Below, one piece after another: positions 20,763 to 62,170 of a stretch of 64,000 nucleotides of DNA. Position numbers and translations under genes: made by a program. The stretch is taken from assembly GCF_018873765.1 (NCBI RefSeq), contig NC_057921.1:27005784-27069783 (forward strand), read 5' to 3'. Under the pieces are notes generated by a model. That model did no database searches. It was not told the DNA's origin and saw only the letters and a list, made by a program, of their open reading frames with translations. This stretch comes from Telopea speciosissima (taxonomy: Eukaryota; Streptophyta; Magnoliopsida; Proteales; Proteaceae). Each line of letters begins with the position of its first letter. Position 1 is the first letter of the stretch.

Positions 20763-21338
20763 TCAATCAGTTACAGTAACAGTTACTGGAGGAGGAGAAG
20801 AAGAAGAACAGAACAACTGAATCTGTTCAAGAAAAGTAACATTTTGAGCCCTCTCAGTCCTCCTAATGTACCCACTCGCTTCTTTCTCGGAATATCTGCA
20901 AAATCCTTTCTTTCCATTGCTCCGCCACAGCTCCTCCCCGTAACTCCGATGGGCGTAATACGCCTCTACTCCGCCCGTCACTGCAACTCTCTTCTCAATA
21001 CCGTCGTCAGCGGTTTCTTCCGCCGGGAAAATCTCTATCGGCAACCTCTCGTAGTGCCCAAGACTTATTCCTTCCAACTCATCCATCCGTTCAAGCCCTT
21101 TCGCCGTAACTTCGTAAAGCTCTCCCCAGATTTGGTCGCCATGGCCGCTGAGGTTGATGAGGAAAGGAACACGATAGGGTCCACAGACGAGTGGGAATCT
21201 CTCGACGGTTCGGTAAACTCCGAGAAAAATGGCATCACCTGTTGGCATCAGGGCTTCGATTAAGCCGTGGTTGGGGAAGCCTCGTTTGAGAGTCCCGTAG
21301 GTGAAGATGAGTTTTCGGTTCTGCTGTTCACAGCTCAT
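20763..21338 (-). CDS. Gamma-glutamylcyclotransferase / AIG2-like protein
   Basis: A complete 191-residue single-exon frame beginning MSCEQQNRKLIFTYGTLKRG. The YGTLKRGFPNHGL motif binds the gamma-glutamyl substrate in the GGCT-like fold, and the ELEGISLGHYER segment contains the Glu expected as the catalytic acid. Family members release 5-oxoproline from gamma-glutamyl amino acids or amines, usually in the cytosol, linking to glutathione turnover; in plants several are named AIG2-like. The length fits the plant form (about 170-200 residues). The Ser/Pro- and Thr/Val-rich tail after QIQLF is low in complexity. It is the only intact non-mobile gene here. The exact substrate cannot be told from sequence. 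Confidence 0.93.
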   Translation of the reverse strand: MSCEQQNRKLIFTYGTLKRGFPNHGLIEALMPTGDAIFLGVYRTVERFPLVCGPYRVPFLINLSGHGDQIWGELYEVTAKGLERMDELEGISLGHYERLPIEIFPAEETADDGIEKRVAVTGGVEAYYAHRSYGEELWRSNGKKGFCRYSEKEASGYIRRTERAQNVTFLEQIQLFCSSSSPPPVTVTVTD

Positions 21339-26592: not shown

Positions 26593-29578
26593 TGTTACAC
26601 CCGCACCCCAAATATTTCCTTATACCCCGGGGCAATCCAGACCTTACCCAAAGGGTAATGCCTTATGGCGATGGTCAACATTGGTGACCTTGAACTAAAA
26701 TTACCATAAAAAGAACCCCCTCGAAGACTTGGAAGTGTAGGCCAAAGCCCCACAACTTTCCTTGAAATTTGGACCATGACAGCAACACCGGAGTCACGAA
26801 CGGACTTACTCTTGCTGAATCCGCTCAAGGATCCGCCCGTGCTGTCATCAGCCTTTTTGGATTATTTTTCTGTGGGATCCACATGCCCATGTCCTAGACA
26901 CCCTAATTGACCCTTTGGACCATATGGACCCTTGCCCTCACCATTTCTTGGTTGAGTGGGCCATGAAAGTGGGCCCACAAGGCTTAACTTAGGTGAATAA
27001 TGGGTTTTATACACCCTGGCCTAAACCAAACAGACTTTAATGGACAATTGAGTCCTATGGACTTAGGGTGTACCCCAAACATGACCTAATGGACCTAATG
27101 GTTATACCTAAGGCCAAACAATCCCTAAGACCTAACTAGAACCCATTTAACGATCTAAGGGCTACTAAGTGGTTGAGGATACCTAAACCAAATACACCCT
27201 AAGGTCCATCTAACCCCTTAAAGGATAGGAGAACCCCTCTCTTTCACTTATCTCTCTCCCTCCCCCATAAACCGTGGAGGAGAAGAGACAAGAGAAGAAG
27301 GAGAAGAAGGAAAGAAGAAGGAGAAGTAGAAGTAGGAGAGGAATAGGAGCGGAAGGGAAGAAGGTGGAAGCCATGCAAAGATGGCTGGCTGCTCCACACC
27401 TCCTCCCAAGCTAGCCGGACCCAAGGGAGAAGAGAAAGAGGAGGAGAAGAGATGGAGAGAGTGGCTGGAAGAAGGAAGCTCACCAAGGTAAGCTCCCCAA
27501 ACCTAGCTCTCCCCCATTTCTCTTTGATTTTGATGATTCTTGAGCTAGGGCTAACCTAGGGTTCCATTTGGGACTCAAGGTGAAGTTCGGCCTTAGTTGG
27601 GAACTCTAATGATGCTGACCTAGGCGTCTAAGTGCTACATTTGCAGCCATGGCTAATGAATCCCTGGTTTGAACCTTGAATTCCTACCCTTGGATCAATG
27701 TGAGACCCAAACCATATAGGATCTTGGATCCTTGATGGTGAGCCTAGGATCTAGTGACCCTAGGAAGGCTTAGACACCTCTCCTATGACCCTCAGGTGCT
27801 AAGGAGCTCCAAGCTTTAAGCTGAAGCAAAAGCCCTCTGAAATCTCGAAAGAGATTATTGACGGACGAAAGACTGGATCCATCTATTATGCTACCGCCCG
27901 TTAGTTCGCCTAGTATAAACCCTATGTGTTGGCCTGAGCGGACGAAGGCACGGATTCACACTAGTTGCCTCCGCCCTAAGCCTGTTGCTCTCGGGTCTGT
28001 CTCAGGAATTGAACGAATGCAGGGGCGGACCCAAGAAGCACATCCACCCGTAGATTCGCTCCCTTTTAGGAGTGTCTCAGGTGTCAAACGGATGCACGAT
28101 CGGGTCTAAGTGAGATGTTCCGCTCGTGGATCCGTTCTCTCTGTTTTCACCTTTTGGCCTGAACGAAGTCAGGGGCAGATTCACCTCTACTAAGACCGCC
28201 CGTGAGTCCGCGCGTGCTGTCTTGGTTGAAATCTGATTTTAACCTTATGGGCCTAACATGGGACCCTTCTATGCATGCTTTAATGATTGTTTTTGTATTC
28301 CTAGGCTACCCAACTCGATGGTTGGAGGGAAGCCCAGGTGAGATTCATGTCAACCACACGAGGCGGCGCCCGTGTTGGGTGAGTAGGTTATGGGTGATTT
28401 GTTGGGTTTGAATATATAATTAATATGGAATCTTAAGCATGCTAGTATATATTTATAAGCATTGTGCGCATTGGATTATTATTCAAATGTGAATTGTTAT
28501 GAATGTTATAGCATGCTCACCATTCTATCGGGCTACGGTGTCGGGTGTGCCGGTACCGGAACCCCAATTTATTTAATTATGAAAACTACTGTATGACATC
28601 CTGATCTGTATGTGCCATGTCGTGTTGGTACCCGAGTACCATATGGAATGGGACGTTGATGCACCCAGAATACCTCTCTGGACGATAGGACCTGCATATA
28701 GTATATCTGTGGCTAGGATGCTTGTTCCCTTATGCTACGACCCTTGCCAACAGGGGTTTATGTGTTGGATAGTCTGAGCACCTGTGGTCTGTGGAGGTGG
28801 GAGAGGCCAGGACAGGGGTAGTGATGGCTATTGGGGTTTGCCACTGGGTGGTCATGATGGCTTCTACCAACGCAGGTCCCTTCGTGATAATTGAGGTTTC
28901 ACTGGGGCGATAGGATAAGTGACCCTCAGTGTCTCCTGAGTTATCATAGTAGCATATACTTGACCGATAGAATTGTGTGCTAGGTGGAAAATGAATCTAA
29001 CATTAGCATGCATCATTCTAGTTGATATTGATTGTATGGTGTATATGCATTCCCCTTTGCTCCCTCACTAGCTAGTGTAGCTAACCCCATTGTACAACCC
29101 CTTTTTAGTTGTTATGCAGGAGGTACTATTTAGATGAGCACTGTTGGATGCGAATCAAGTGGAGCCAGTGGCTGAGACTTGGATGTAGATGTACACCCAA
29201 GGATGGTGCTCTTGGGGCAATTATTTGTTATTTTATTATTTTCTGTCTTCATTCCACAATCATGTATAAACTATGTGTTTATTTATAGGGAGAGTAATGG
29301 ATGGTTACTTATGTTAGAATTGTAATATGTGTTATCATTAGAGAACCGATGCTCTATAATTTCACATGATTTAATTTAATTTCGCTTCCACTAACTCTGT
29401 ATCTAGAACAGTTTATTTCCTTTTGTACGTTCCTATCTATTATCAATACGTAATGACAGGGTGAACTGTGACTCGGGGCACTGTATCTGCGATCCTGGTA
29501 GGTGTTGGTATGATGTGGAATTGTCCCAGTCATACCCCTATGTGGCAAAATATTTTACATCGGGATAGAGGCGTGACA
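26593..29578 (+). repeat. 5' LTR of the nested element
   Basis: 2986 bp. In the first 150 bp, about 10 differences from the other LTR can be counted (roughly 93% identity). It contains a cluster of GAACGGAC/GTCCGCCC-like modules at about 27855-28215 and one at 26790-26845, a purine-rich stretch at 27280-27480, and a perfect palindrome CACTAGCTAGTG near 29067. Confidence 0.93.
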
Positions 29579-34573: not shown

Positions 34574-37564
34574 TGTTACACCAGCACCCCAAATATCCCC
34601 TTATACCCCGGACCAATCCAGACCTTACCTAAAGGGTAATGCCTTATGGCCATGGTCAACATTGATGACCTTGAACTGAAATTACCATAAAAAGAACCAC
34701 CTCGAAGACTTGGAAGTGTGGGCCAAAGCCTCGCAACTTTCCTTGAAGTTTGGGCCATGACAGTAGTACCGGAGTCACGAACAGACTTACTCTTGCTGAA
34801 TCTGCTCGAGGATCTGCCCGTGCTGTCATCAACCTTTTTGGATTATTTTCCTGTGGGACCCACATGCTCATGTCCTAGACACCCTAATTGACCCTTTGGA
34901 CCATATGGACCCCTGCCCTCACCATTTCTTAGTTGAGTGGGCCATGAAAGTGGGCCCACAAGGCTTAACTTAGGTGAATAATGGGTTTTATACACCCTGA
35001 CCTAAACCAAACAGACCTTAGTGGACAATTTAGTCTTATGGACTTAGGGTGTACCCCAAACATGACCTAATGGGCCTAATGGTTATACCTAAGGCCAAAC
35101 AAGCCCTAAGACCTAACTAGAACTCATTTGAAGACCTAAGGGCCACTAAGTGATTGGGGATACCTAAACCAAACACATCCTAAGGTCCATCTAACCCCTT
35201 AAAGGATAAGAGAATCCCTCTCTTTCACTTATCTCTCCCCCTCCCCCATTAACCATGGAGGAGAAGAGACAAGAGAAGAAGGAGATAAAGGAAAGAAGGA
35301 AAGAAGAAGAAGTAGAAGTAGGAGAGGAATAGGAGGGGAAGGGAAGAAGGTGGAAGCCATGCAAAGATGGCTGGCTGCTCCACATCTTCTCCCAAGCCGG
35401 CCGGACCCAAGGGAGAAGAGAAAGAGGAGGAGAAGAGACGAAGAGAGTAGCTGGAAGAAGGAAGCTCACCAAGGTAAGCTCCCCAAACCTAACTCTCCCC
35501 CATTTCTCTTTGATTTTGATGATTTCTTGAGTTAGGGCTAACCTAGGGTTCCATTTGGGACTCAAGGTGAAGTTCGACCCTAGTTGGGAACTCTAATGAT
35601 GTTGACCTAGGCCTCTAAGTGCTGTATTTGCAGCCATGGCTAATGAATCCCTGGTTTAAACCTTGAATCCCTACCCTTGGACCAATGTGAGACCCAACCA
35701 TATAGGATCTTGGATCCTTGATGGTGAGCCTAGGATCTAGTGACCCTAGGAAGGCTTAGACACCTCTCCTATGACCCTCAGGTGCTAAGGAGCTCAAAGC
35801 TCCAAGCTGGAGAAAAAGCCCTTTGAAATCTCAGAAGAGACTGCCGACGGACGAATGATCGGATCCATCTATCGTGGTACCATCCATCAGTCCGCCCAGT
35901 ATAAACCCTATGTGTTGACCTGAACGGACGAAGGCACCGATTCACTCTGGTTGCCTCCGCCTGAAGCCTGTTGCTCTCAGGTATCTCTCAGGAATTGAAC
36001 GGATGCAGGGGGGGACCCAAGACGCACATCGGCCTGTAGATCTGCTACCTTTTAGGAGTGTCTCAGGTGTCGAACGGATGCACGATCGGATCCAAGTGAG
36101 ATGTTCCGCTCGTGAATCTGCTCGCTCTGTTTTCACCTTTTGGCCTGAACGGAGTCAGGGGCGGATTTACCTCTGCTGAGACCGCCCATGAGTCCGCTCG
36201 TGTTGTCTTGGTTGAAATCTGATTTTAACCTTATGGGCCTAGCATGGGCCCCTTCTATGCATGCTTTAATGATTGTTTTTGTATTCCTAGGCTACCCAAC
36301 TCGATGGTTGGTGGGAAGCCCAGGTGAGATTCATGTCAACCACACGCGGCGGTGCTCGTGTTAGGTGAGTGGGTTCTGGGTGATTTGTTGGGTTTGAATA
36401 TATAATTAATATAGAATCTTAAGCATGCTAGTATATATTTATAAGCATTGTGCGCATTGCATTATTATTCAAATGTGAATTGTTATGAATGTTATAATAT
36501 GCTCACCATTATATCGGGCTACGGTGCTGGGTGTGCCGGTATCAGAACCCCAATTTATTTAATTATAAAAATAACTATATGACATCCTGATCTGTATGTG
36601 CCGTGCTGTGCTGGTACCCGGGTACTAGATAAAATGGGACGTTGATGAACCCGGAATACCTCTCGGGATGATAGGACCTGCATATAGTATATCTGTGGCT
36701 AGGATGCTTGTTCCCTTATGCTACGACCCTTGCCAGCAGGGGTTTATGTGTTGGATAGTCTAAGCACCTGTGGTTTGTGGAGGTGGGAGAGTCCAAGACA
36801 GGGATAGTGATGGTTATTGAGGTTTGCCACTGGGTGGTCATGATGGCTTCTATCGGTGCAGGTCCCTTCGTGATAATTGAGGTTTCACTGGGGTGATAAA
36901 ATAAGTGACCCTCAATGTCTCCCGAGTTATCACAGTAGCATATATTTGACCGATAGAATTGTGTGCTAGGTGGAAAATGAATCTAACATTAGCATGCATC
37001 ATTCTGGTTGATATTGATTGTATAGTGTATATGCATTCCCCTTTGCTCCCTCACCAGCTAGTGTAGCTAACCCCATTGCGTAACCCCTTTTTAGTTGTTA
37101 TGCAAGAGGTACTACGTAGATGAGCACCGATAGATGCGAATCAAGTGGAGCCACTAGCTGAGACTTGGATGTAGATGTACACCCAAGGATGGTGCCCTTG
37201 GGGCAATTATTTGTTATTTTATTATTTTCTGTCTTCATTCCACAATCATGTATAAACTATGTGTTTGTTTATAGGGAGAGTAATGAATGATTACTTATGT
37301 TAGAATTATAATATGTGTTATCATTAGAGAACCGATGCTCTATAATTTCACATGATTTAATTTAATTTCGCTTTCGCTAACTCTGTATCTGGAACAGTTT
37401 ATTTCCTTTTGTACATTCCTATCTGTTATCAATACGTGATGACAGGGTGGACTATGGCTCGGGACACTATATCTACAATCCTGGTAGGTGTTGGGATGAT
37501 GTGGAATTGTCCCAGTCATACCCCTATGTGGTAAAATATTTTACATCGGGATAGAGGCGTGACA
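34574..37564 (+). repeat. 3' LTR of the nested element
   Basis: 2991 bp copy of 26593-29578 with scattered substitutions and small indels. Module cluster at 35835-36205. Confidence 0.93.
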
Positions 37565-41535: not shown

Positions 41536-42772
41536 TGTAAGTACCGTGGTCCTCGCAGCGACGAGGTTTCCGTAGCCTTATTGGCGACAGATGGGTTAAT
41601 ACGGATAATATTGTCAATGTACAAAAATGAAGTTAGGGGATTGGGATCATGTATCAACATATATTAAAATAATGTGAAGTCGCCACCTAGGGTTAGGGCT
41701 GAGGACCCACTAAGTATAGTCCTATCCATTATGAACGGAATCGGGCTATGTGACTCCATATGGTCCGACCAGAGGTTCGGGTAAGGGGTCAGGTTACGAG
41801 TGTGGGAAGGTGTTAGGCATCCACCTCACTCGGCCAAACCGGTCTCTTTGTAATAGATGCTACATAATGACGAATATTCTCTCTCTTTTATTACGGGGAC
41901 GGAATATTATGAACTATATTATGACATTATGGACTACATTAGATATACAAAATGTATATTAAAATGATGAAACATGAAAGGACTATATTGAATCGATGAA
42001 AAATGCAGTAATTATACCTGTGCAAATGTATTCCCTTGGCTCAGGGGAGACGGGCGAACGGACTGAAGTCGATTCCTTTTGGGCAGAATAACAACTCTTT
42101 TTGGTAATTTGGTAGCAAACAACTGGACAGAATGACATCTGTATTGGGGGGATTTCACTTGTTATCCGTGCATTGACGGGATAACAATCTCTAAGAGCAG
42201 AATCGCTCTATATTCGGATGGGTAATCGAAGGATCTACCCACGCTGAAGAAGCTTCACTCACTCACGCCCTCACAAGAGGAAGAGGAGGGAAGGAGGGTA
42301 AAAAAAGGGGAAAAAGGGGATGGAAATCACCTATGGAGGGTCTCCCAGCCCAAAAATCCATTGAAAACAAGGGAGGGGGACCCTCTTATTTATAGGGGAG
42401 GGGGGACCCTCACCCCTGGCCAGATAACACCTTTACGGCGCCATGGAGGTGCCCACGACGCCGTGGGGGACTTTTCCATGACGTCGTGGATGACATCAGT
42501 AGGCTGATATCACACCCCTTTGCGGCGCCGTGGAAAAAGTACAGTGGTGCCATGGTGGGTTCCCACGGTGTCGTGGGAATGTCCACGGCGCCGTGGGGGC
42601 GCAGTGCCAATTTTTCTTATTTTGGGCCTTAAATGGGCTCCTTTAGTATTGAGGTTCTTTCTGGGCCTATGGGCTTTCTTTTTAGGGCTTTTCTAGGGGT
42701 AGTGGTGCGGTCTCGTTCATCCATGTCCCTTTGTCATCATTGCCAAGGGGGTGACAAAATCCAGTGTCTATA
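41536..42772 (-). repeat. 3' LTR of the Ogre-like element
   Basis: 1237 bp. A TATA box on minus lies at 42387-42394 (TATAAATA). The terminal TG on minus is mutated to TA (TATAGACACTGG). It lacks the MITE found in the other LTR and so shows the uninterrupted site near 41550. Confidence 0.92.
42420..42605. promoter_or_regulatory. Cluster of CACGGCGCCGTG-type palindromes upstream of the LTR TATA box
   Basis: At least six copies of a near-palindrome (best copy CCACGGCGCCGTGG; variants such as CCACGACGCCGTGG and CCATGACGTCGTGG). They lie directly upstream of the minus-strand TATA box, which suggests protein-binding sites. The other LTR has the same cluster at 61850-62000. Confidence 0.7.
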
Positions 42773-43707: not shown

Positions 43708-46700
43708 ATGGCATTCTGCAAACGTGCTCTCCAGCCCTCGCACGATGTGCTCCTCAGCACGGACACCAGGGATTCTCGCGCCGCCTGGTACCCGACAGGA
43801 GTCACGCTTGCCGATACTGCTCGCCATGGCTGTTGCGCCATCTGGGGCCAGGTTAGCCATCTTACCCTTTTTATTTCAATCTCTTGTATTTGTAATTAGA
43901 TGTCCTGGGTACACACTCGACATCCACTTATTGTATGTGATAAAAAATAGACATTCTAGGTTCACAAATCTAGGTGATGCCTCTAGATACTAACTTAGGC
44001 ATCCATTGACCTGCAAACCGAGGTGAAGCCATTAGACACTACCCTAAGTGTCTTTTGGCACACAAATCAAGGCGATCACCCTAGATACCATCCTAGGGAC
44101 CTATAGGTATGCAAATCGAGGCAAGGCCATTAGACGCTACCCTAAATGTCTTTTGGCACGTAAATCAAGGCAATGCCCCTAGATACCATCCTCGGTACCT
44201 ATTGACACGCAAACTAAGGCGAGACCATTAGATACCATCCTAGGCGTCTTTTGGCACACAAATCAAGGCGATGCCCCTAGATACCATCCTCGGTACCTAT
44301 TGACACGCAAACCAAGGCGAGACCATCAGATACCATCTTAGGCACCTAATGGCATGCAAATCGAGGCAGGGCCATTAGATACTACCCTAAGTGTCCTTTG
44401 GCATGCAAATCGAGGCGATCCCCCTAGATACCATCCTAGGCACCTATTGACACGTAAGTCGAGGCAGGGCCATTGGATACTACCCTAAGTGTCCTTTGGC
44501 ACATAAATCAAGGTGATGCCCCCAGATACCATCCTAGGCAACTATTAACACGCAAACCAAGGCGAGACCATTAGATACCATCTTAGGCACCTGTTGGCAC
44601 GTGAATTGAGGCAATGCCCCTAAATACCCTCTTAGGCACCTATTGGCATGCAAATCGAGGCAAGGCCATTAGACACTACCCTAGGTGTTTTTAGGCACAT
44701 AAATCAAGGCGATGCCCCTAGATACCATCCTTGGCACCTATTGACACGTAAACTAAGGCGATGCCCCTAGATACCCTCTTAGGCACCTATCAGCACGTAA
44801 ATCAAGGCGAGGCCATTAGACACTACCCTAAGTATCTTTTGGCACACAAATCAAGGCGATACCCTCTTAGGCATCTATTGGCACATAAATTGAGGCAAAG
44901 CCATTGGACACTACCCTAAGTGTCTTTTGGCATGCAAATCAAGGCGATGCCCCTAGATACCATCCTAGGCACCTATCGGCATGCAAATCGAGGAGATGCC
45001 CCTAGATGCTACCCTAAGTGTCTTTTGGCACATAAACCAAGGTGATACCATTAGATACTATCTTAAGCACCTATTGGCACGCGAATTGAGGTGACCCCCC
45101 TAGATAGCATCCTAGGCACCTATTGACACCACTCCTCCTCTTTTCATTTTTATTTTCATTTTTTAATTTTTATTGCTTATTGATTATTGCCTGAGTTATC
45201 TTACTTAACCATCTCTTTTTATCTTGATTTTTTGGCAGGGCAAACCCCTCCGCCCAAGAAGTACTGTGGGCTGGAGAAGGTATCCGAGTGGTATAGAGCA
45301 CTCTGCCCGGAGGTGCAAGCCAGAGTGAGGAGGACCGGGCTAGGGCACATTGCTGCATGCTCTGCTCGAGAGTTGGATAGCTCGACAGCGAGGGCTTTGA
45401 TAGAGAGGTAGTGGCCGAGCACCCACACATTTCATCTTCCCTTGGGTGAGGTGACGGTCACCCCTCTAGACTTCTATATGATCACCGGGCTTCCCTTTGG
45501 AGGGTTTCCCATGACGTTGACCTTGGTGGAGCGGGTGGTGGCTTTGACGGAGCCTACATAGCACCTCAATTACTACAGGCAGCTTTTAGGGTTTTAGGTC
45601 GCTGATAGAGAGATCCCTACAGTGGTCCTGAGGAGCTTTTGGGACGAGAGGGTGGTGACGGATCGATCGCCCCCCGAGCAGCTCGACCAGATGGCTAGGT
45701 GCCTCCTCCTCTTTCTACTGGCGGAGGTCGTGTTTTGCCACATGATGGGGAGGGTGACTGTTGATGCTGCCTATGTCCATTTTTTTGAGGCCTTCAATCA
45801 AGCCGCGGGCTATGATTGGGGAGGTTCGGCATATGTCCACTTCCTCTACATGATGGATTTCTTGGTCGTGGGGTCGCCAAACCTGATCGCCTGCTGCTAT
45901 GTTCTCTGGGTGAGTTGTCTCACTATTTTTTTTATTATTTTATATTTATCTGGTTTTTTTTCATTGACTCATTTCTGTTTATTGCAGACATGGAGCTATG
46001 AGGTTCTTCGGTTTCGGGTCCCCACTTTCAGGATTGGGGATGACCCCGGGACCACCTTCCCTAGGTCTACGCAATGGCGTAAGACCCATCTTCTTAGGAG
46101 TGGCCGCCACAGGGATCTTGATTCCATACGCAGCCTCCTGAATGAGTTGTAGCTTGATGAGGTATATCCAAACTTGCCTTTCTTCTTTCTTATTCCTTTT
46201 TGTTTGTTTGTTTTTTTATTTTATTATTTTTTTTTGTGCTTACCTGCCTTTTATTTGACAGACTTCTCTCCGCCCATATTTGGCGGAGATCATCCTAGAG
46301 CTGGACTTATTTGCTAGGGCCTCGGCTCTCTCCTCCTACCGGATTCTCTTCAAGGGTCTGTGGGGGTTCTCCTTCTACATGGGAGAGCGAGTGTCCCTGC
46401 AGTGGTCCGATGCTCAATTTGTCCCTTGCCTGCCTCCAGCTCGGGTCCATGATCCATCCTTGATGGATTGAGAGGAAATTGACCACTAGAGGGCCAGCGA
46501 GCAAGGGATTGGCTTGGTGTTGGTCGACACAGACTACACCACCTTCCTCCACTGGGAGACTGTCTGCATCCCCCTTACTCCAGAGGGGCCTCGGGTATGA
46601 CTCATTACTCCTTCCTCTCTTTTTTTATTATTTTTCCTTTCGGATTGTTGAACTAACCCTTATTTTTTTTTTCTTGTAGTATCCTGATCGCCCCCTATAC

Positions 46701-47563: not shown

Positions 47564-48629
47564 TTATTTACAACATTTTTCCCACGTCTGGGACAACAGA
47601 ATCACCACTTCTTGAGTCAACATCTCTGGGACTCTGAAATTCTTCAACTTAAGCTGTTCCTGCTTTGGGGACACCAAGGAGGGAATATAAAAACTAGTGT
47701 GAGTCAAACCCATGAATCTCACGTGATTGCACTCGGGTATTTCTGGTTCCTCTATCTCGGCCTTCATCCAAGGGCAGTTCCATTGGATTTCTTGAACAAC
47801 TTCTTCCATCCGAAAATTTCTTCCAATCTTGGATCTTGTGAAATTCTGACTTTTCTCTTCTCATTTGATAGTGTATGAGCCGAAGGTGAGGACATGGAAT
47901 CAGCTATACTAATTTCAATTTTTCCATCAACCACATTCGAAACACCGTCGGAGATCCGTGAAAGAAATCTGTTCCATATTTTTTAGACTGACTCATGACA
48001 TCAAACCCTTTGAAAGTCTCTGCTAAAATGGTGAGGACAATGTCACATCCTTCTTCTACCTATTTAACCACTTCCGCAATCATTGGAGACATGCCTTTTC
48101 CTGGAGCCGTTAGTAGGTACTTCCCGATCATACAGAATAGGTATGCTCGTTTCCTGCCTCGGATTTGACCTTCTTCTTCAAACCTGTTGTTGTTGAAGAT
48201 CTTTACAACTTTCAACGCATCCACCTGGTCATAATTGAGAATCTGCTTTATCTCTTTCTTATTCATGACGAAGAACTCTTCTAGATTTTTGAAGAGTTGC
48301 TCTTTCTGCATGATCGGGAGGAACAATTTTCCTCGAGGGGGTGTTAACATACAAGCCCGGAATTCTTCAATAGTTGGAGTCAGCCAGACTTTTCCAAAAT
48401 GAAAGGCGTGCAACTGAGGATCCCAGCATTTTGACGCTTCCCTAAGTAAGTCATGATGAAGCTTGAAGCATCTGATCCTACCCAGTATCATCAGATGGAG
48501 ATCATCTAGAAGAGTAGGACCATCCGTATTCATCCGGAGAGTCCACTGGTGCAGCTGCTCGTCTAGCCCCTCTTTCTTTGGTTCCCGCATGCTACCTGCA
48601 TCAAGGATCATATTAGCACTTTGTGACAT
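47564..48629 (-). pseudogene. DUF7745-like accessory ORF, sense to the Ogre element
   Basis: Open for 189 residues from MSQSANMILDAGSMREPKKEG. The pattern LHHDLLREASKCWDPQLHAFHFGKVWLTPTIEEFRAC matches a plant domain of unknown function related to PMD (DUF7745 as I recall it), common near Gypsy elements. After MIAEVVK a TAG stop interrupts, and similarity goes on (VEEGCDIVLTILAETFKGFDVM) in frame. The downstream part is further broken. Function unknown. It lies downstream of integrase on the same strand, separated from it by the MYB-bearing element. Confidence 0.65.
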
Positions 48630-48801: not shown

Positions 48802-50513
48802 GGGTTTTTTACAATTACCACCCCAAAATCTTTACTATCTACTATTACCCCCCCCAAAAACTTTGAAACAACTGTTACCCCCCTCTGTTGCATACTAATA
48901 ACTAACTGACCCCCACCGTTACATTTCTGTAATGGAGAGGGTTAGTCGTGACAGTGTGCCGTTGGCACGGATTTTTTAAGACCAAAATACCCTTTTGGGG
49001 TTTTGGGGTGGTAATTGTAAAAAAAAAAAAAAAAAAAAAAAAACCCATCACCGTCCCTTCTCCTCCTCCTTCTCCTCCTTCTTCTTCTTCTTCCTCCTCT
49101 GCATAAAACCAGTTTCACTAGATCAAATTCTTTCTGGAACAACCTTTACAGAAATCAAATAACAAAAATATGGAAAGAGAAATCTCTCTCCCTCTCCCTC
49201 TCGTTTAAATGATGAGATTTCGTTTAATTTCTTTTAACTCTCATGAAAAAGTAGACCTACCTACCAAATCCCATTCAGCATTGAGCATCTCTTTTCCGAT
49301 CCTATCTTGTAACTACTCGTCTTCCTCACTAAGTCGGTCAAATGCCCACGAAAGGGTTCGACTCAATTGGTACTCAAGAGTTTCTTCCTCATATAAATCC
49401 TCTTGTTCCTTTGTTCCAGTACTCCTTTCCATAAATCCTCTCTCTCTCTAATTAAAAGGGCACAAAACACATAAAAGAAGCAACAGCAGAACACATAGAA
49501 GAGAGATAGACAGATGGGTCGTTCTCCTTGCTGTGAGAAAGCCCACACCAACAAAGGTGCATGGACCAAAGAAGAAGATCAGCGCCTCATCAACTACAAC
49601 AGAGCCCATGGCGAGGGCTGCTGGAGATCTCTCCCCAGAGCCGCAGGTAACCCATTTAGGATTAACCTAACCCAAATCAGCCAAGCTAGAGAAAACCCAT
49701 GTCGTTACTTCCTCTCTAACTCTCTTTCTCTCCATTTATGTGTGTGTTTCAGGTTTGCTGCGTTGTGGAAAGAGTTGCAGATTAAGATGGATAAATTACC
49801 TGAGGCCTGATCTCAAAAGAGGCAATTTTACTAAAGAAGAAGACGAGCTCATCATCAAACTCCATAGTTTACTTGGAAACAAGTAAGCCCCCTTCTCTTT
49901 CCTTCTCATCAATTCTTTTCGATTACACATTTAATTGAGAATCTGAAAGCACTTCCAGTATGAACTCATTTGGGACTTTTTTCAAATATTTAGATGGTCT
50001 CTAATTGCTGGTAGATTACCCGGAAGAACGGACAATGAAATCAAGAACTATTGGAATACCCACATCAAGGTACTCCAGACGCCACTTATATGGGTGAGAA
50101 TTTAATTGGGTTTTTCAAATGGGCCTGAAAAAAACCTGAATTTTCTATCGGTCCAAGGTTTTTGATTTTGGTTTGATGGCAGCCACATTTTGGGGTTGGG
50201 GTTGCAGAGGAGGAAGAGGAGGAAAAGGAGGAAGAGGAGGAAGAAGAAGAAGAAGAAGGAGAAGGAGGAGGAGAAGGGGCGGTGATGGGTTTTTTTTTTT
50301 ACAATTACCACCCCAAAAGGGTATTTTGGTCTTAAAAAATCCGTGACAACGGCAAACTGTCACGACTAACCCTCTCCGTTACGAAAATGTAACGGTGGGG
50401 GTCAATTTGTTATTAGTATGCAACAGAGGGGGGTAACAGTTATTTGAAAGTTTTTTTGGGGGGGGGGTAATAGTAGATAATAAAGATTTTGGGGTGGTAA
50501 TTGTAAAAAACCC
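48802..50513. mobile_element. Inverted-repeat (MULE- or foldback-like) element carrying MYB exons
   Basis: 1712 bp bounded by GGGTTTTTTACAATTACC at 48802 and its complement ending at 50513. The two arms (48802 to about 49100, and about 50206-50513) are inverted copies of each other, including a CCCATCACCG(T/C)CCC stretch and a polypyrimidine run further inside. Each arm's outer 230 bp also looks like a small MITE with its own inverted ends. The insertion site is a T run (A run on minus), compatible with a 9-bp duplication but not provable. The cargo is the MYB gene fragment. No transposase. Confidence 0.82.
49514..50105 (+). CDS. Captured R2R3-MYB gene fragment, open 124-residue MYB-domain-only protein
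   Basis: Exons 49514-49646 (133 bp), 49753-49882 (130 bp) and 49994-50105, with canonical GT-AG introns; the first two lengths are the standard ones for R2R3-MYB genes. The protein starts [20 protein letters not shown], like subgroup 4 (MYB4-type) factors. R2 and R3 are complete to NYWNTHIK, including the bHLH-contact motif ([20 protein letters not shown]). After THIK the captured sequence ends and [11 protein letters not shown] plus a stop follow. Unusual: Asn for Ile in [11 protein letters not shown]. It lacks any C-terminal EAR-type domain. Some 5' flanking sequence (CATATAAATCC near 49391) came with it. Expression is unknown. Confidence 0.85.
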
Positions 50514-50610: not shown

Positions 50611-52371
50611 TCAGACTAAATACTTCTTTAATTGGTCCATGTTGACTAATCCCCGAAGATCTTCTCCATCAAGGTCAGAGAGTTGGACTGCCTGACCTGG
50701 CAATATGGTCTTAACTTTATAAGATCCGCTCCAATTAGGCCGGAATTTCCCCCTTGGGTTATGAATAGGAGCTCGCTGCTCTCTTAGGACCAAATCTCCT
50801 TCTTCAATGCTTCGAGTACGTACACCCTTATTGGATGCCCTAGCCATTCTTTGTTGATACTTCTTGAGATTGTCCATGGCTTTCATTCTTTTCTCATCCA
50901 AGAGATTGAGCTCTTCGTATCTAGCTCTCATCCATTCTCCTTCTGGCAATTGGCTATCGAGTAAAACTCGAAGAGAGGGGACTTGGATTTCTACAGGCAG
51001 CACAGCCTCTACTCCGTACACAAGAGAGTATGGGGTTGCCCCAGTAAAGGTTCGGATGGATGTCCGGTATGCCCATAAGGCGAATGGGAGCTTCTCCGCC
51101 CAGCCATTGTGTGTATCTGCCATCTTTTGCAGTATGACCTTCATATTTTTTTTAGCTGCTTCTACTGCTCCATTAGTCTGTGGAAGGTAAGTAGTAGAGT
51201 TATGCCTCTTAATGCCAAATCTGTCACAGAGTTCCTCCACTTTTCCTCGGAAATACAACCCTTGGTCTGAAATCAATTGCTGAGGTATGCCATATCTGCA
51301 AATGATGTTTTCTTTTATGAACTTTTCCACCTTAGCGGAAGTCAAAACTGCATAAGACTGAGCTTCCACCCATTTTGTGAAATAGTCGATGGCGACTAAC
51401 ACGAATTGGTGACCGTTAGAAGCCTTTGGGGTTATTTTGCCAACTACATCAATACCCCAAGTAGAGAATGGCCAAGGGGCATTCAGCGAATGTAACTCTG
51501 TTGGAGGGATATGAATAATATTGGCAAATATCTGACATTTATGGCATCGTTTCTCAAAGGCGGCACACTCGGCTTCCATTGTTGCCCAATAATATCCCAT
51601 CCTGAGGATCTTCTTGGCAAGCATCTTTGCATTCATGTGCGGTCCACATATTCCTTGGTGGGTTTTTTTCATAATGGTTTGAGCCTGATCCTCATCTACG
51701 CATAATAGCTGGATGCCATCATAAGACCTCTTGTATAACAAGTTTCCTTGGAGGATGAATTGAGTAGCATATTTCTGCAAGTGCCTCTTCTCTCTTTCCG
51801 AAAAGTGTTCAGGGTACCTCCTTTCCTTAATGTAATTAGTTATCGGGGGGTACCAAGGCCTTCCATCCTTGGTGAGCGCATTGACTGGCTCCCCATATGC
51901 TGGGCTGGCTCTTCTTTCTATTAAAAAAGGTTGGATCCTGTCCCGAGGATCGCACTCCACCATGGATGCTAAAGTGGCTAAGGCATCAGCAAATCGATTG
52001 TTGTCTCTAGGCAGATATTCAAATAATATTTCTGTGAAGCATCGGATTAATTGCTCCAAATAAACTTGGTAGGGTTTTAATTTTTCGTCCTTAGTCCTCC
52101 ACTTTCCTTGAGTTTGACAGATCACAACAGAGGAATCTCCATAAACCTTGATCCTTTTCGCTCCTACGGACAAAGCCATTTCCAACCCAATGACGCAGGC
52201 TTCATACTCTGCTATGTTATTGGTGCAACTGAATTCCAACCAGACCGCCATTGGCAAGTAGAAATCCTCTGGGGTTATCAGTAATACCCTAGCCCCAAAT
52301 CCCTTTTGATTTGCCGCTCCATCAAAATACAACTGCCATCCTTCATTTGGTTCTGCTTCTATAGAGTGCAA
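50611..52371 (-). CDS. Ogre archaeal-type RNase H and integrase, open for 586 residues
   Basis: Residues about 12-140 are the second RNase H (LYFDGAANQKGFGA, NNIAEYEACVIGLEMAL, VYGDSSVVICQ, NNRFADALATLA). Integrase follows: zinc-binding HQGICGPHMN ... CHKCQIF, core Asp in AIDYFTKWVEA, Asp in LISDQGLYF, Glu in NGAVEAAKK, and a C-terminal part (SIEEGDLVLREQR). Integrase joins element cDNA to host DNA. All catalytic residues are present and there is no stop, in contrast to the upstream RT. It would be the C-terminal end of the Gag-Pol product; the first Met is not a true start. Confidence 0.92.
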   Translation of the reverse strand: MHSIEAEPNEGWQLYFDGAANQKGFGARVLLITPEDFYLPMAVWLEFSCTNNIAEYEACVIGLEMALSVGAKRIKVYGDSSVVICQTQGKWRTKDEKLKPYQVYLEQLIRCFTEILFEYLPRDNNRFADALATLASMVECDPRDRIQPFLIERRASPAYGEPVNALTKDGRPWYPPITNYIKERRYPEHFSEREKRHLQKYATQFILQGNLLYKRSYDGIQLLCVDEDQAQTIMKKTHQGICGPHMNAKMLAKKILRMGYYWATMEAECAAFEKRCHKCQIFANIIHIPPTELHSLNAPWPFSTWGIDVVGKITPKASNGHQFVLVAIDYFTKWVEAQSYAVLTSAKVEKFIKENIICRYGIPQQLISDQGLYFRGKVEELCDRFGIKRHNSTTYLPQTNGAVEAAKKNMKVILQKMADTHNGWAEKLPFALWAYRTSIRTFTGATPYSLVYGVEAVLPVEIQVPSLRVLLDSQLPEGEWMRARYEELNLLDEKRMKAMDNLKKYQQRMARASNKGVRTRSIEEGDLVLREQRAPIHNPRGKFRPNWSGSYKVKTILPGQAVQLSDLDGEDLRGLVNMDQLKKYLV

Positions 52372-60455: not shown

Positions 60456-62170
60456 TGTAAGTACCATGGTCCTCCATAGTTGTCACGGCGTCACGGCGAT
60501 CCAAGTCGGTGGAGGGGTGTCACGTCGATATATCGACATGTCGCCCGCCATGGCGTTGCCATGGCGAGCATGTCGATCATGTTTTATTTTTTATTTTCTC
60601 TATTTTTAATGTGTTAATTGATGTATACTCAAGCCATGTTTTATTTTTTCTCTATTGTTTCTCAAGTTTTAAGAAGAAAATTCAGAAATCGAAGAGGGAA
60701 AGAAGAAATCGAAAGAAATCGAAGAGGGAAAGAAGACAGGAAGAAGAAATTGAAGAGGGAAAGAAGACAGGAAGAAGAAATCGAAGAAGAAATCGAAAGA
60801 AATTGAAGAGGGAAAGAAGAAATCGAAGAGGGAAGAAGAAATCGAAGACAGGAAGAAGAAATCGAAGAGGGAAAGACAGTCAGGAAGAAGAAATCAAAGA
60901 GGGTCGCCATGGCGTAGGTCGCCATGCAGCCCTCTCCAGCGCCAGGACGCCATGACAACTATGTGGTCCTCACGACGACGAGGTTTCCGCAGCCTTATTG
61001 GTGACAGATGGATTAATACGGATAATATTGTCAATGTACAAAAATGAAGTTAGGGGATTGGGATCATGTATCAACATATATTAAAATAATGTGAAGTCGC
61101 CACCTAGGGTTAGGGCCTAGGAACCATTAAGTATAGCCCTATCCATTGTGAACGGAATTGGGCTATGTGACTCCATATGGTCCGACCAGAGGTTCGGATA
61201 AGGGGTCAGGTTACGAGTGTGGGAAGGTGTTAGGCACCCACCTTGCCCGGCCAAAACTGGTCTCTCTGTAATAGATGCTACATAATGACGAATATTCTCT
61301 CTCTTTTATTACGGGGTCGGAATATTATGAACTATATTATGACATTATGGACTACATTAGATATACAAAATGTATATTAAAATGATGAAACACGAAAGGA
61401 CTACATTGAATCGATGAAAAATGCAGTAATTATACCTGTGCAAATGTATTCCCTTGGCTCAGGGGAGACGGACGAACGGATTGAAGTCGATTCCTTTTGG
61501 GCAGAATAATGACTCTTTTCGGTAATTTGGTAGTAAACAACTGGACAAAATGATGTCTGTAGTGGCGGGATTTCACTTGTTATCCATGCACTGACGGGAT
61601 AACAAACTCTAAGAGCGGAATTACTCTATATTCGGATGGGTAATCTAAGGATCTACCCACGCTGAAGAGGCTTCACTCACTCATGCGCTCACAAGAGGAA
61701 GAGGAGGGAAGGAGGGTAAAAAAAGGGGGAAAAGGGGATGGATATCACCTATGGAGGGTCTCCCAGCCCGAAAATCCATTGAAAACAAGGGAGGGGGACC
61801 CTCCTATTTATAGGGGAGGGGGGACCCTCACCCCTGGCCAGATAACACCTCCACGGCGCCATGGGGAACTTTTCCACGGTGCCATGAATGACGTCAGTAG
61901 GCTCATGTCACACTCCTTTGCGGTGCCGTGGAAAAGGTACAGTGGTGTCGTGGTGGGTCCCCACGGTGCTGTGGGAATGTTCACGACGCCGTGGGGGTGC
62001 AATGCCAATTTTTCTTATTTTGGGCCCTAAATGGGCTCCTCTAGTATTGGGGTTCTTTCTGGGCCTATGGGCTTTCTTTTCAAGACTTTTCTAGGGGTAG
62101 TGGTGTGGTCTCGTTCATCCATGTCCCTTTGTCATCATCATCAAGGGGGTGACAAAATCCAGTGTCTACA
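60456..62170 (-). repeat. 5' LTR of the Ogre-like element, with a MITE inside
   Basis: 1715 bp, or about 1218 bp without the MITE and its duplication. Ends TGTAGACACTGG and GGTACTTACA on minus. TATA box on minus at 61805-61812, palindrome cluster at 61850-62000. A stretch of about 90 bp near 61015-61110 is unchanged between the two LTRs. Confidence 0.92.
60475..60963. mobile_element. Non-autonomous hAT element (489 bp) in the Ogre LTR
   Basis: Ends CATAGTTGTCACGGCGTC and the complement of CATAGTTGTCATGGCGTC. Flanks 60467-60474 and 60964-60971 are both TGGTCCTC, and the other LTR has a single TGGTCCTC at the same place (about 41548-41555), the empty site. Subterminal GCCATGGCG-type repeats. 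The middle (60670-60900) is a purine-rich GAAGAGGGAAAGAAG repeat, which produces meaningless long ORFs. Confidence 0.95.

Follow-up and report, generated by a model that had tools for sequence, protein, structure and literature searches.

Probable serial gene capture by a Pack-MULE of Telopea speciosissima, with a MYB piece that is most likely a passenger

What is an open MYB reading frame doing between two inverted repeats? The question was raised by an initial annotation, made from the letters of one stretch of the Telopea speciosissima genome, which saw there an inverted-repeat transposon that had captured an R2R3-MYB gene. The stretch, which we call the window, is 64,000 nucleotides long (C6:27005784-27069783 of the 823-Mb assembly), and the object in question, 1,712 bp in length, belongs to the non-autonomous Mutator-like elements and has inverted arms of about 300 bp (Table 1). 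We hold with high confidence that it is a Pack-MULE with serial gene capture and that its MYB piece is, most likely, a passenger. The element sits between two minus-strand Ty3 retrotransposon frames, a pol frame (50611-52371) and a DUF7745-like frame (48060-48629) whose Pfam score is slightly below the cut-off. A putative LTR pair of this host retrotransposon, 91.6% identical, lies at 41546-42770 and 60963-62168. The annotation had described nearly all of the surroundings as riddled with stops, which was an overstatement, the adjoining pol frame being open for 586 residues. Elsewhere in the window there is a tandem array (43867-45185, within the retrotransposon region) of units of about 49 bp, whose identity in register is roughly 60-80%. 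Two stretches of about 3 kb in direct orientation (26593-29578 and 34574-37564) are 92.5% identical and are perhaps LTRs or a segmental repeat, and a 191-aa frame at 20763-21338 is presumably AIG2/gamma-glutamylcyclotransferase-like.

Table 1. Features of the element, in window coordinates.
Feature	Position	Strand	Remarks
Pack-MULE	48802..50513	+	in T-run of antisense Ty3 retrotransposon; flanks TCTTTTTTT / TTTTTTTTT
Left terminal inverted repeat	48802..49100	+	299 bp; outer 193 bp match the arm at C5:60112466 (88%)
Left capture junction, TGCA	49100..49103	+	also in parent MYB; shared with TIR provided the left arm formerly continued like the right
Captured MYB promoter/5' UTR	49101..49513	+	about 413 bp
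TATA-like box	49390..49400	+	CATATAAATCC; in 16/16 copies and parent
MYB exon 1	49514..49646	+	contains I29N
MYB exon 2	49753..49882	+	E72K in window copy only
MYB exon 3, part	49994..50105	+	MYB to 50067, then PPR-derived codons; stop TAA at 50103-50105
Right capture junction, TCA	50065..50067	+	common to parent MYB and PPR cargo
Remnant of earlier PPR (At3g02650-like) cargo	50068..50151	+	
Possible splice donor, AAG/GT	50070..50071	+	homologous AGG/GT used in models P0002 and P0123
Possible splice donor, TGG/GTGAGA	50094..50095	+	homologous site used in model P0126
Inner part of longer TIR	50152..50232	+	without left counterpart in window element or four PPR elements
Right terminal inverted repeat	50233..50513	-	281 bp

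The arms are much as the annotation had them. Aligned with each other they agree in 265 of 277 ungapped columns (95.7%), with a further 26 gap columns, and the ungapped blocks between them are 93-97% identical. Each arm has inverted 24-mers of its own (48805-48828/49001-49024 and 50295-50318/50487-50510) that bound its outer 227-245 bp, and such MITE-like ends invite the thought that two independent MITEs happened to land on either side of an old MYB pseudogene. The inverted match, however, continues inward of the MITE-like unit (49033-49100 with 50233-50300, 97%), and arms and MYB recur together at 16 sites with 9-bp duplications on the outside. These whole-unit copies, together with the match beyond the MITE-like unit, refute the idea of two independent MITEs, whose chance of being right we put at practically nil.

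The 16 complete or nearly complete copies, found by searching the genome with the whole element, are spread over 8 chromosomes: two each on C1, C4, C6 (the window copy included), C10 and C11, single copies on C2 and C3, and four on C9. With the cargo alone as query (49101-50068) and the best 40 candidates scored, the search returned the same 16 at 96-100%, then a single gene at 93%, and then MYBs at no more than 84%, which is a sharp fall. Pack-MULEs duplicate 9 bp of their target, and here 11 of the 16 copies have perfect duplications (three of them single-base runs, and L024 counted with its left end shifted by 3 bp), two match at 8/9 and three at 7/9. The window copy is one of those at 8/9, a weak match because its insertion site is a T-run. 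In a control that paired the flanks of different copies, 17% reached at least 7/9 and 1.7% reached 9/9, with a mean of 4.0 matches. The element has transposed as a unit, to 16 sites on 8 chromosomes.

To what family does it belong? The family's TIR reads GGGTTTTTTACAATTACCACCCC, and the TIR 23-mer, allowing at most one mismatch, matches the genome 537 times (271 forward, 266 reverse), against 0 for the reversed pattern. Thirteen exact-end pairs were fetched, 12 of them with 9/9 duplications and one with 4/9. At C5:60112466 an exact TIR is followed, from about 2.6 kb inside, by ORFs with transposase domains: DBD_Tnp_Mut (1.8e-13), MULE (1e-6) and SWIM (4.9e-6). The right end of that element was not found in the 1.6 kb fetched beyond. 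These transposase ORFs, with the arm match to the window, place the family in the MULE superfamily and make the window element a Pack-MULE. The annotation had suggested a search of the genome for further elements that share these arms but enclose something else, and there are such elements: L042, L045, L048, L062, L066, L068 and L069 have the same ends around different contents, with cargo in common within the pairs L042/L048, L062/L066 and L068/L069. Three more family members of about 6.17 kb (L057, L058 and L059, at C2:7775847, C3:17292888 and C5:62036652) are 97-98% alike, with intact ends and 9/9 duplications. Of the transposase frame they retain the beginning, about 340 codons, with one internal stop in two of the three, and scans of two of their ORFs, the first from L059 and the second from L057, showed no transposase domain. 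L057 and L058 also have an antisense ORF, that of L057 matching a GRF zinc finger. Further afield, an arm 21-mer had 0 matches in IMG/VR and one in prokaryote genomes, which we take to be chance.

The arms have changed faster than what they enclose. Between copies they differ by 4-8% (window 48802-49046 and 50287-50513), against about 1.2% in the cargo. C>T and G>A make up 50% of events in the arms versus 31%, and by the same counts transversions are raised as well. Methylation-driven mutation might account for this, or exchange with the many other members of the family. We also considered homogenisation of the two arms within an element, and saw no sign of it: mean left-right identity is 0.916 within elements (n=14) and 0.916 between them (n=182), L023 and L024 being left out of the comparison as their arms are damaged.

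The MYB piece itself is about 970 bp long and comprises promoter-side DNA, the first two exons and a portion of the third. The annotation had proposed a search for its parent in the same genome, and there is one full-length parent, the gene at C3:23340443-23341557. It is 93% identical to the cargo and encodes P0124, a subgroup-4-like protein of 283 residues. Given this parent, the 16 copies and the elements with other contents, the refutations that the annotation had named fail at the level of DNA. The exons of the 16 copies differ from it by about 1-5% and their promoter/5' UTR by 6.65% on average; the parent has an extra 119 bp between the two blocks that match 49101-49513. Copy L014 (C3:23582090-23583777) lies some 241 kb from this gene, yet it is not the deepest copy; by a rough estimate, the chance that any of the 16 copies would lie as near is about 1%.

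Most of what had been read from the letters about the product stands. GT-AG introns join the three exons, and the frame closes 11 codons after THIK to give 124 residues. A bHLH-contact motif had been claimed, and the bHLH-contact pattern fits residues 76-95. The product has no C-terminal repression domain, stopping where it does, whereas the parent P0124 has LNLDL, a motif also absent from the annotated element-derived protein P0001. Subgroup 4 is defined by R2R3 plus a C-terminal LxLxL repression motif, and of these the window product has the R2R3 part. The claim of a complete R2 and R3 was right in that Pfam finds both repeats (Myb_DNA-binding, 5.8e-37), but the core of R2 is altered, the window copy having N29. 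Among 233 relatives, which are the best-scoring matches listed rather than a random sample, residue 29 is I in 222, V in 7 and N in 4, all four of the last being element-derived; W57 is invariant in 233 of 233. The parent has I29 and shares R42 with the copies. I29N is present in 15 of the 16 copies and the exception, L022, keeps I29 but has W57S. N29 would be expected to damage R2 through an effect on folding.

The last 11 residues of the window product have a different origin altogether. By their match to the cargo of sister elements they derive from a PPR gene. Four elements with the same arms (L030-L033, two with 9/9 and two with 5/9 duplications) carry the beginning of a PPR gene, which in L030 reads MWRFRAGALLF...EEFVVRVLQTPLIVGENLIEFFKWAWKKPEFS and is 92% identical to P0234, an At3g02650-like Telopea PPR protein. 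A search with 655 bp of PPR sequence, in which nine of nine candidates were scored, returned the four elements at 97-100%, a gene copy at C3:26088549-26089203 at 96%, a C7 sequence at 88% and three partial matches; the C3 gene copy is the PPR parent. In the MYB elements, PPR cargo is retained from (R)VLQTPL onward only, the MYB piece being joined to it in frame and replacing most of it, from which we infer that the PPR piece was captured first and the MYB piece second. Between this remnant and the right arm lies a stretch (50152-50232) with a homologue beside both arms in the sister elements L034, L037 and L038, and partly in L039 and L040.

The junctions have something to say about how the pieces came together. 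The left arm of the MYB elements ends CCTCTGCATAAAA, and the TGCA there is shared by the parent gene and by arms that continue in the manner of the right one (CTCTGCAACCCC). In the four PPR elements, however, the left arm ends short of this motif, so the TCA at the right junction is the sole clear case of shared sequence. The MYB element's left arm also extends a few bases (CCTCTGC) beyond those of the four PPR elements, and its left end was therefore not simply inherited from them. If the left arm was not copied from some other arm at the time of capture, the TGCA match is a matter of chance. For animal Pack-TIR elements, microhomology at breakpoints is reported and read as a sign of template switching (PMC8277862). 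Capture in Telopea may likewise have proceeded by template switching, in repair or replication, and the transposase would have been supplied in trans by a member of the family.

The copies also preserve what became of the fusion afterwards. Originally the MYB-PPR fusion was in frame over 148 residues. Such a frame persists in L020 (its splice donor lost), L022 and L023; L022 is the deepest branch, with support of 93 for the other 15 copies. Five copies (L013, L014, L015, L019 and L021) end at a TGA in place of TGG, after 132 residues. In another six (the window copy, L010, L011, L012, L016 and L024) a 1-nt deletion in the PPR remnant shifts the frame, and those of them with an otherwise unbroken frame end at 124 residues. 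Two replacements, E72K and R113K, are found in the window copy only. The MYB frame is kept as far as the junction in 11 of the 16 copies, and with all four splice sites in 10 of the 16.

Could a product of this kind be doing something useful? R2R3-MYBs of subgroup 4 are repressors, and CPC and MYBL2 are small MYB competitors. The cargo is the R2R3 part of a subgroup 4-type repressor gene, and the annotation had imagined that the transposon thereby made a short MYB, able to compete with the full-length repressor for DNA or for bHLH partners. Such a competitor would be well served by a complete R2R3 frame, an intact bHLH-contact pattern, the loss of the parent's LNLDL and a captured promoter side whose TATA-like box, intact in all 16 copies, makes transcription possible. 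What it should leave is a trace of constraint, and none was detected in omega or indels, in a test of low power. Divergence among copies is 1.2-1.3% for the non-coding cargo and about 1.1% for the exons (weighted over the three). Of 24 exon changes mapped on the tree after capture, 23 could be classified, 16 as replacements and 7 as silent, where the non-coding spectrum predicts N:S:stop of 0.70:0.24:0.06; no stop has arisen by substitution, against about 1.4 expected. For these 23 substitutions omega comes to 0.77 (binomial range 0.30-2.2), and to 0.73 (0.26-2.35; 13 N, 6 S) once changes private to frame-broken copies are set aside. The exons (338 bp) show 4 indel patterns, the non-coding cargo (630 bp) 7. 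With so few substitutions and so wide a range the selection test is weak, so partial constraint, or function in one copy, is possible; as far as such a test goes, the exon changes and indels would fit neutral drift. The frame is open mainly because the copies are young, about 1.2% apart. A maintained competitor finds no support here: the exons seem to drift like the non-coding cargo, and every copy is altered at a conserved R2 position, by N29 in 15 of them and by W57S in L022. The element's product differs from the subgroup 4 repressors and from CPC and MYBL2 in its missing C-terminal repression motif, its I29N and its want of any sign of maintenance. We regard the competitor as highly improbable.

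The annotation had offered a second role, in which the element yields small RNAs against the parent MYB. Sixteen copies with exons some 1-5% from the parent, and arms of 300 bp in inverted orientation, would suit trans silencing. Published statements point the same way, namely that Pack-MULEs are a possible source of small RNAs and that the donor gene can be silenced by sequence captured from it (PMC8277862 and the review PMC13317346). A hairpin of the arms, however, would not include the MYB, because the MYB sits in the loop outside them, and an antisense transcript would be required. Silencing of the parent in this way is unlikely.

A third possibility comes from the gene catalogue. Among the proteins listed, four from Telopea derive from the element, P0001 on its own and P0002, P0123 and P0126 as fusions with flanking exons; all four are NCBI annotation gene models. 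The flanking exon lies 332 bp beyond the element in P0002 (copy L021), 2,080 bp beyond it in P0123 (copy L015) and 2,935 bp downstream of it in P0126 (copy L012), in each case across a GT-AG intron, and the donors are at or just past the MYB-PPR junction. These three models give some substance to the view of the cargo as a mobile first exon, whose transcripts are spliced to flanking acceptors to make MYB-domain fusions at some insertion sites. Against it, the three fusions are gene models, all three have N29 in R2, and the acceptor in P0126 falls inside the open frame of a putative truncated U-box gene piece, the U-box-like part being skipped. We take that piece to be U-box from its looks; Pfam PUB10_N on the P0126 flanking piece reached 0.0025 only, below the cut-off. 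Splicing of this sort at some sites we consider distinctly unlikely. The grander version, in which a promoter side, a start codon, R2R3 and two outward donors together form a mobile start exon that seeds varied MYB-domain fusions genome-wide, is very unlikely. The MYB piece is most likely a passenger, which would be open since it is young, would be drifting neutrally and would at most be transcribed occasionally from its captured promoter.

How does the element compare with its better-known relatives? No paper on it was found among the matches listed in the open-licence PMC literature. A paper on Pack-TYPE transposons is reportedly by Gisby and Catoni. In PMC8903248, Pack-TYPE transposons are described as capable of fusing coding DNA to exons in their neighbourhood; ours too is a TIR element that moves coding exons, and differs from those described there in carrying a near-complete DNA-binding domain plus promoter side. 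The rice Pack-MULEs (Jiang et al. 2004, as cited in PMC8903248 and PMC13317346) are its closest match in kind: non-autonomous, with long MULE TIRs, 9-bp duplications and captured fragments of host genes, multicopy, and with parents elsewhere. Compared with them, the species and the cargo are new, two captures are ordered through surviving sister elements, the MYB-PPR junction is in frame and the arms have inverted ends of their own. The soybean Tgm-Express1 (Zabala and Vodkin 2007, PMC1947982) likewise holds several captured gene fragments in one element, and there they serve as exons, spliced together with those of the host. It is a CACTA element with five fragments, located in a known mutant gene and with cDNA proof, unlike the MULE here and its gene models.

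What the Telopea genome provides is a well-resolved case of stepwise gene capture, with the PPR-only sisters, the parents of both pieces, the junctions, the deepest copy and the decay that followed all preserved in one genome. The two-step capture is unusually readable; function is unlikely. There is also a caution in it, that in gene catalogues of this Telopea genome MYB pieces carried by transposons appear as MYB genes. Should any of the fusions be expressed, nature would have provided a test of whether Pack-MULEs shuffle transcription-factor domains.
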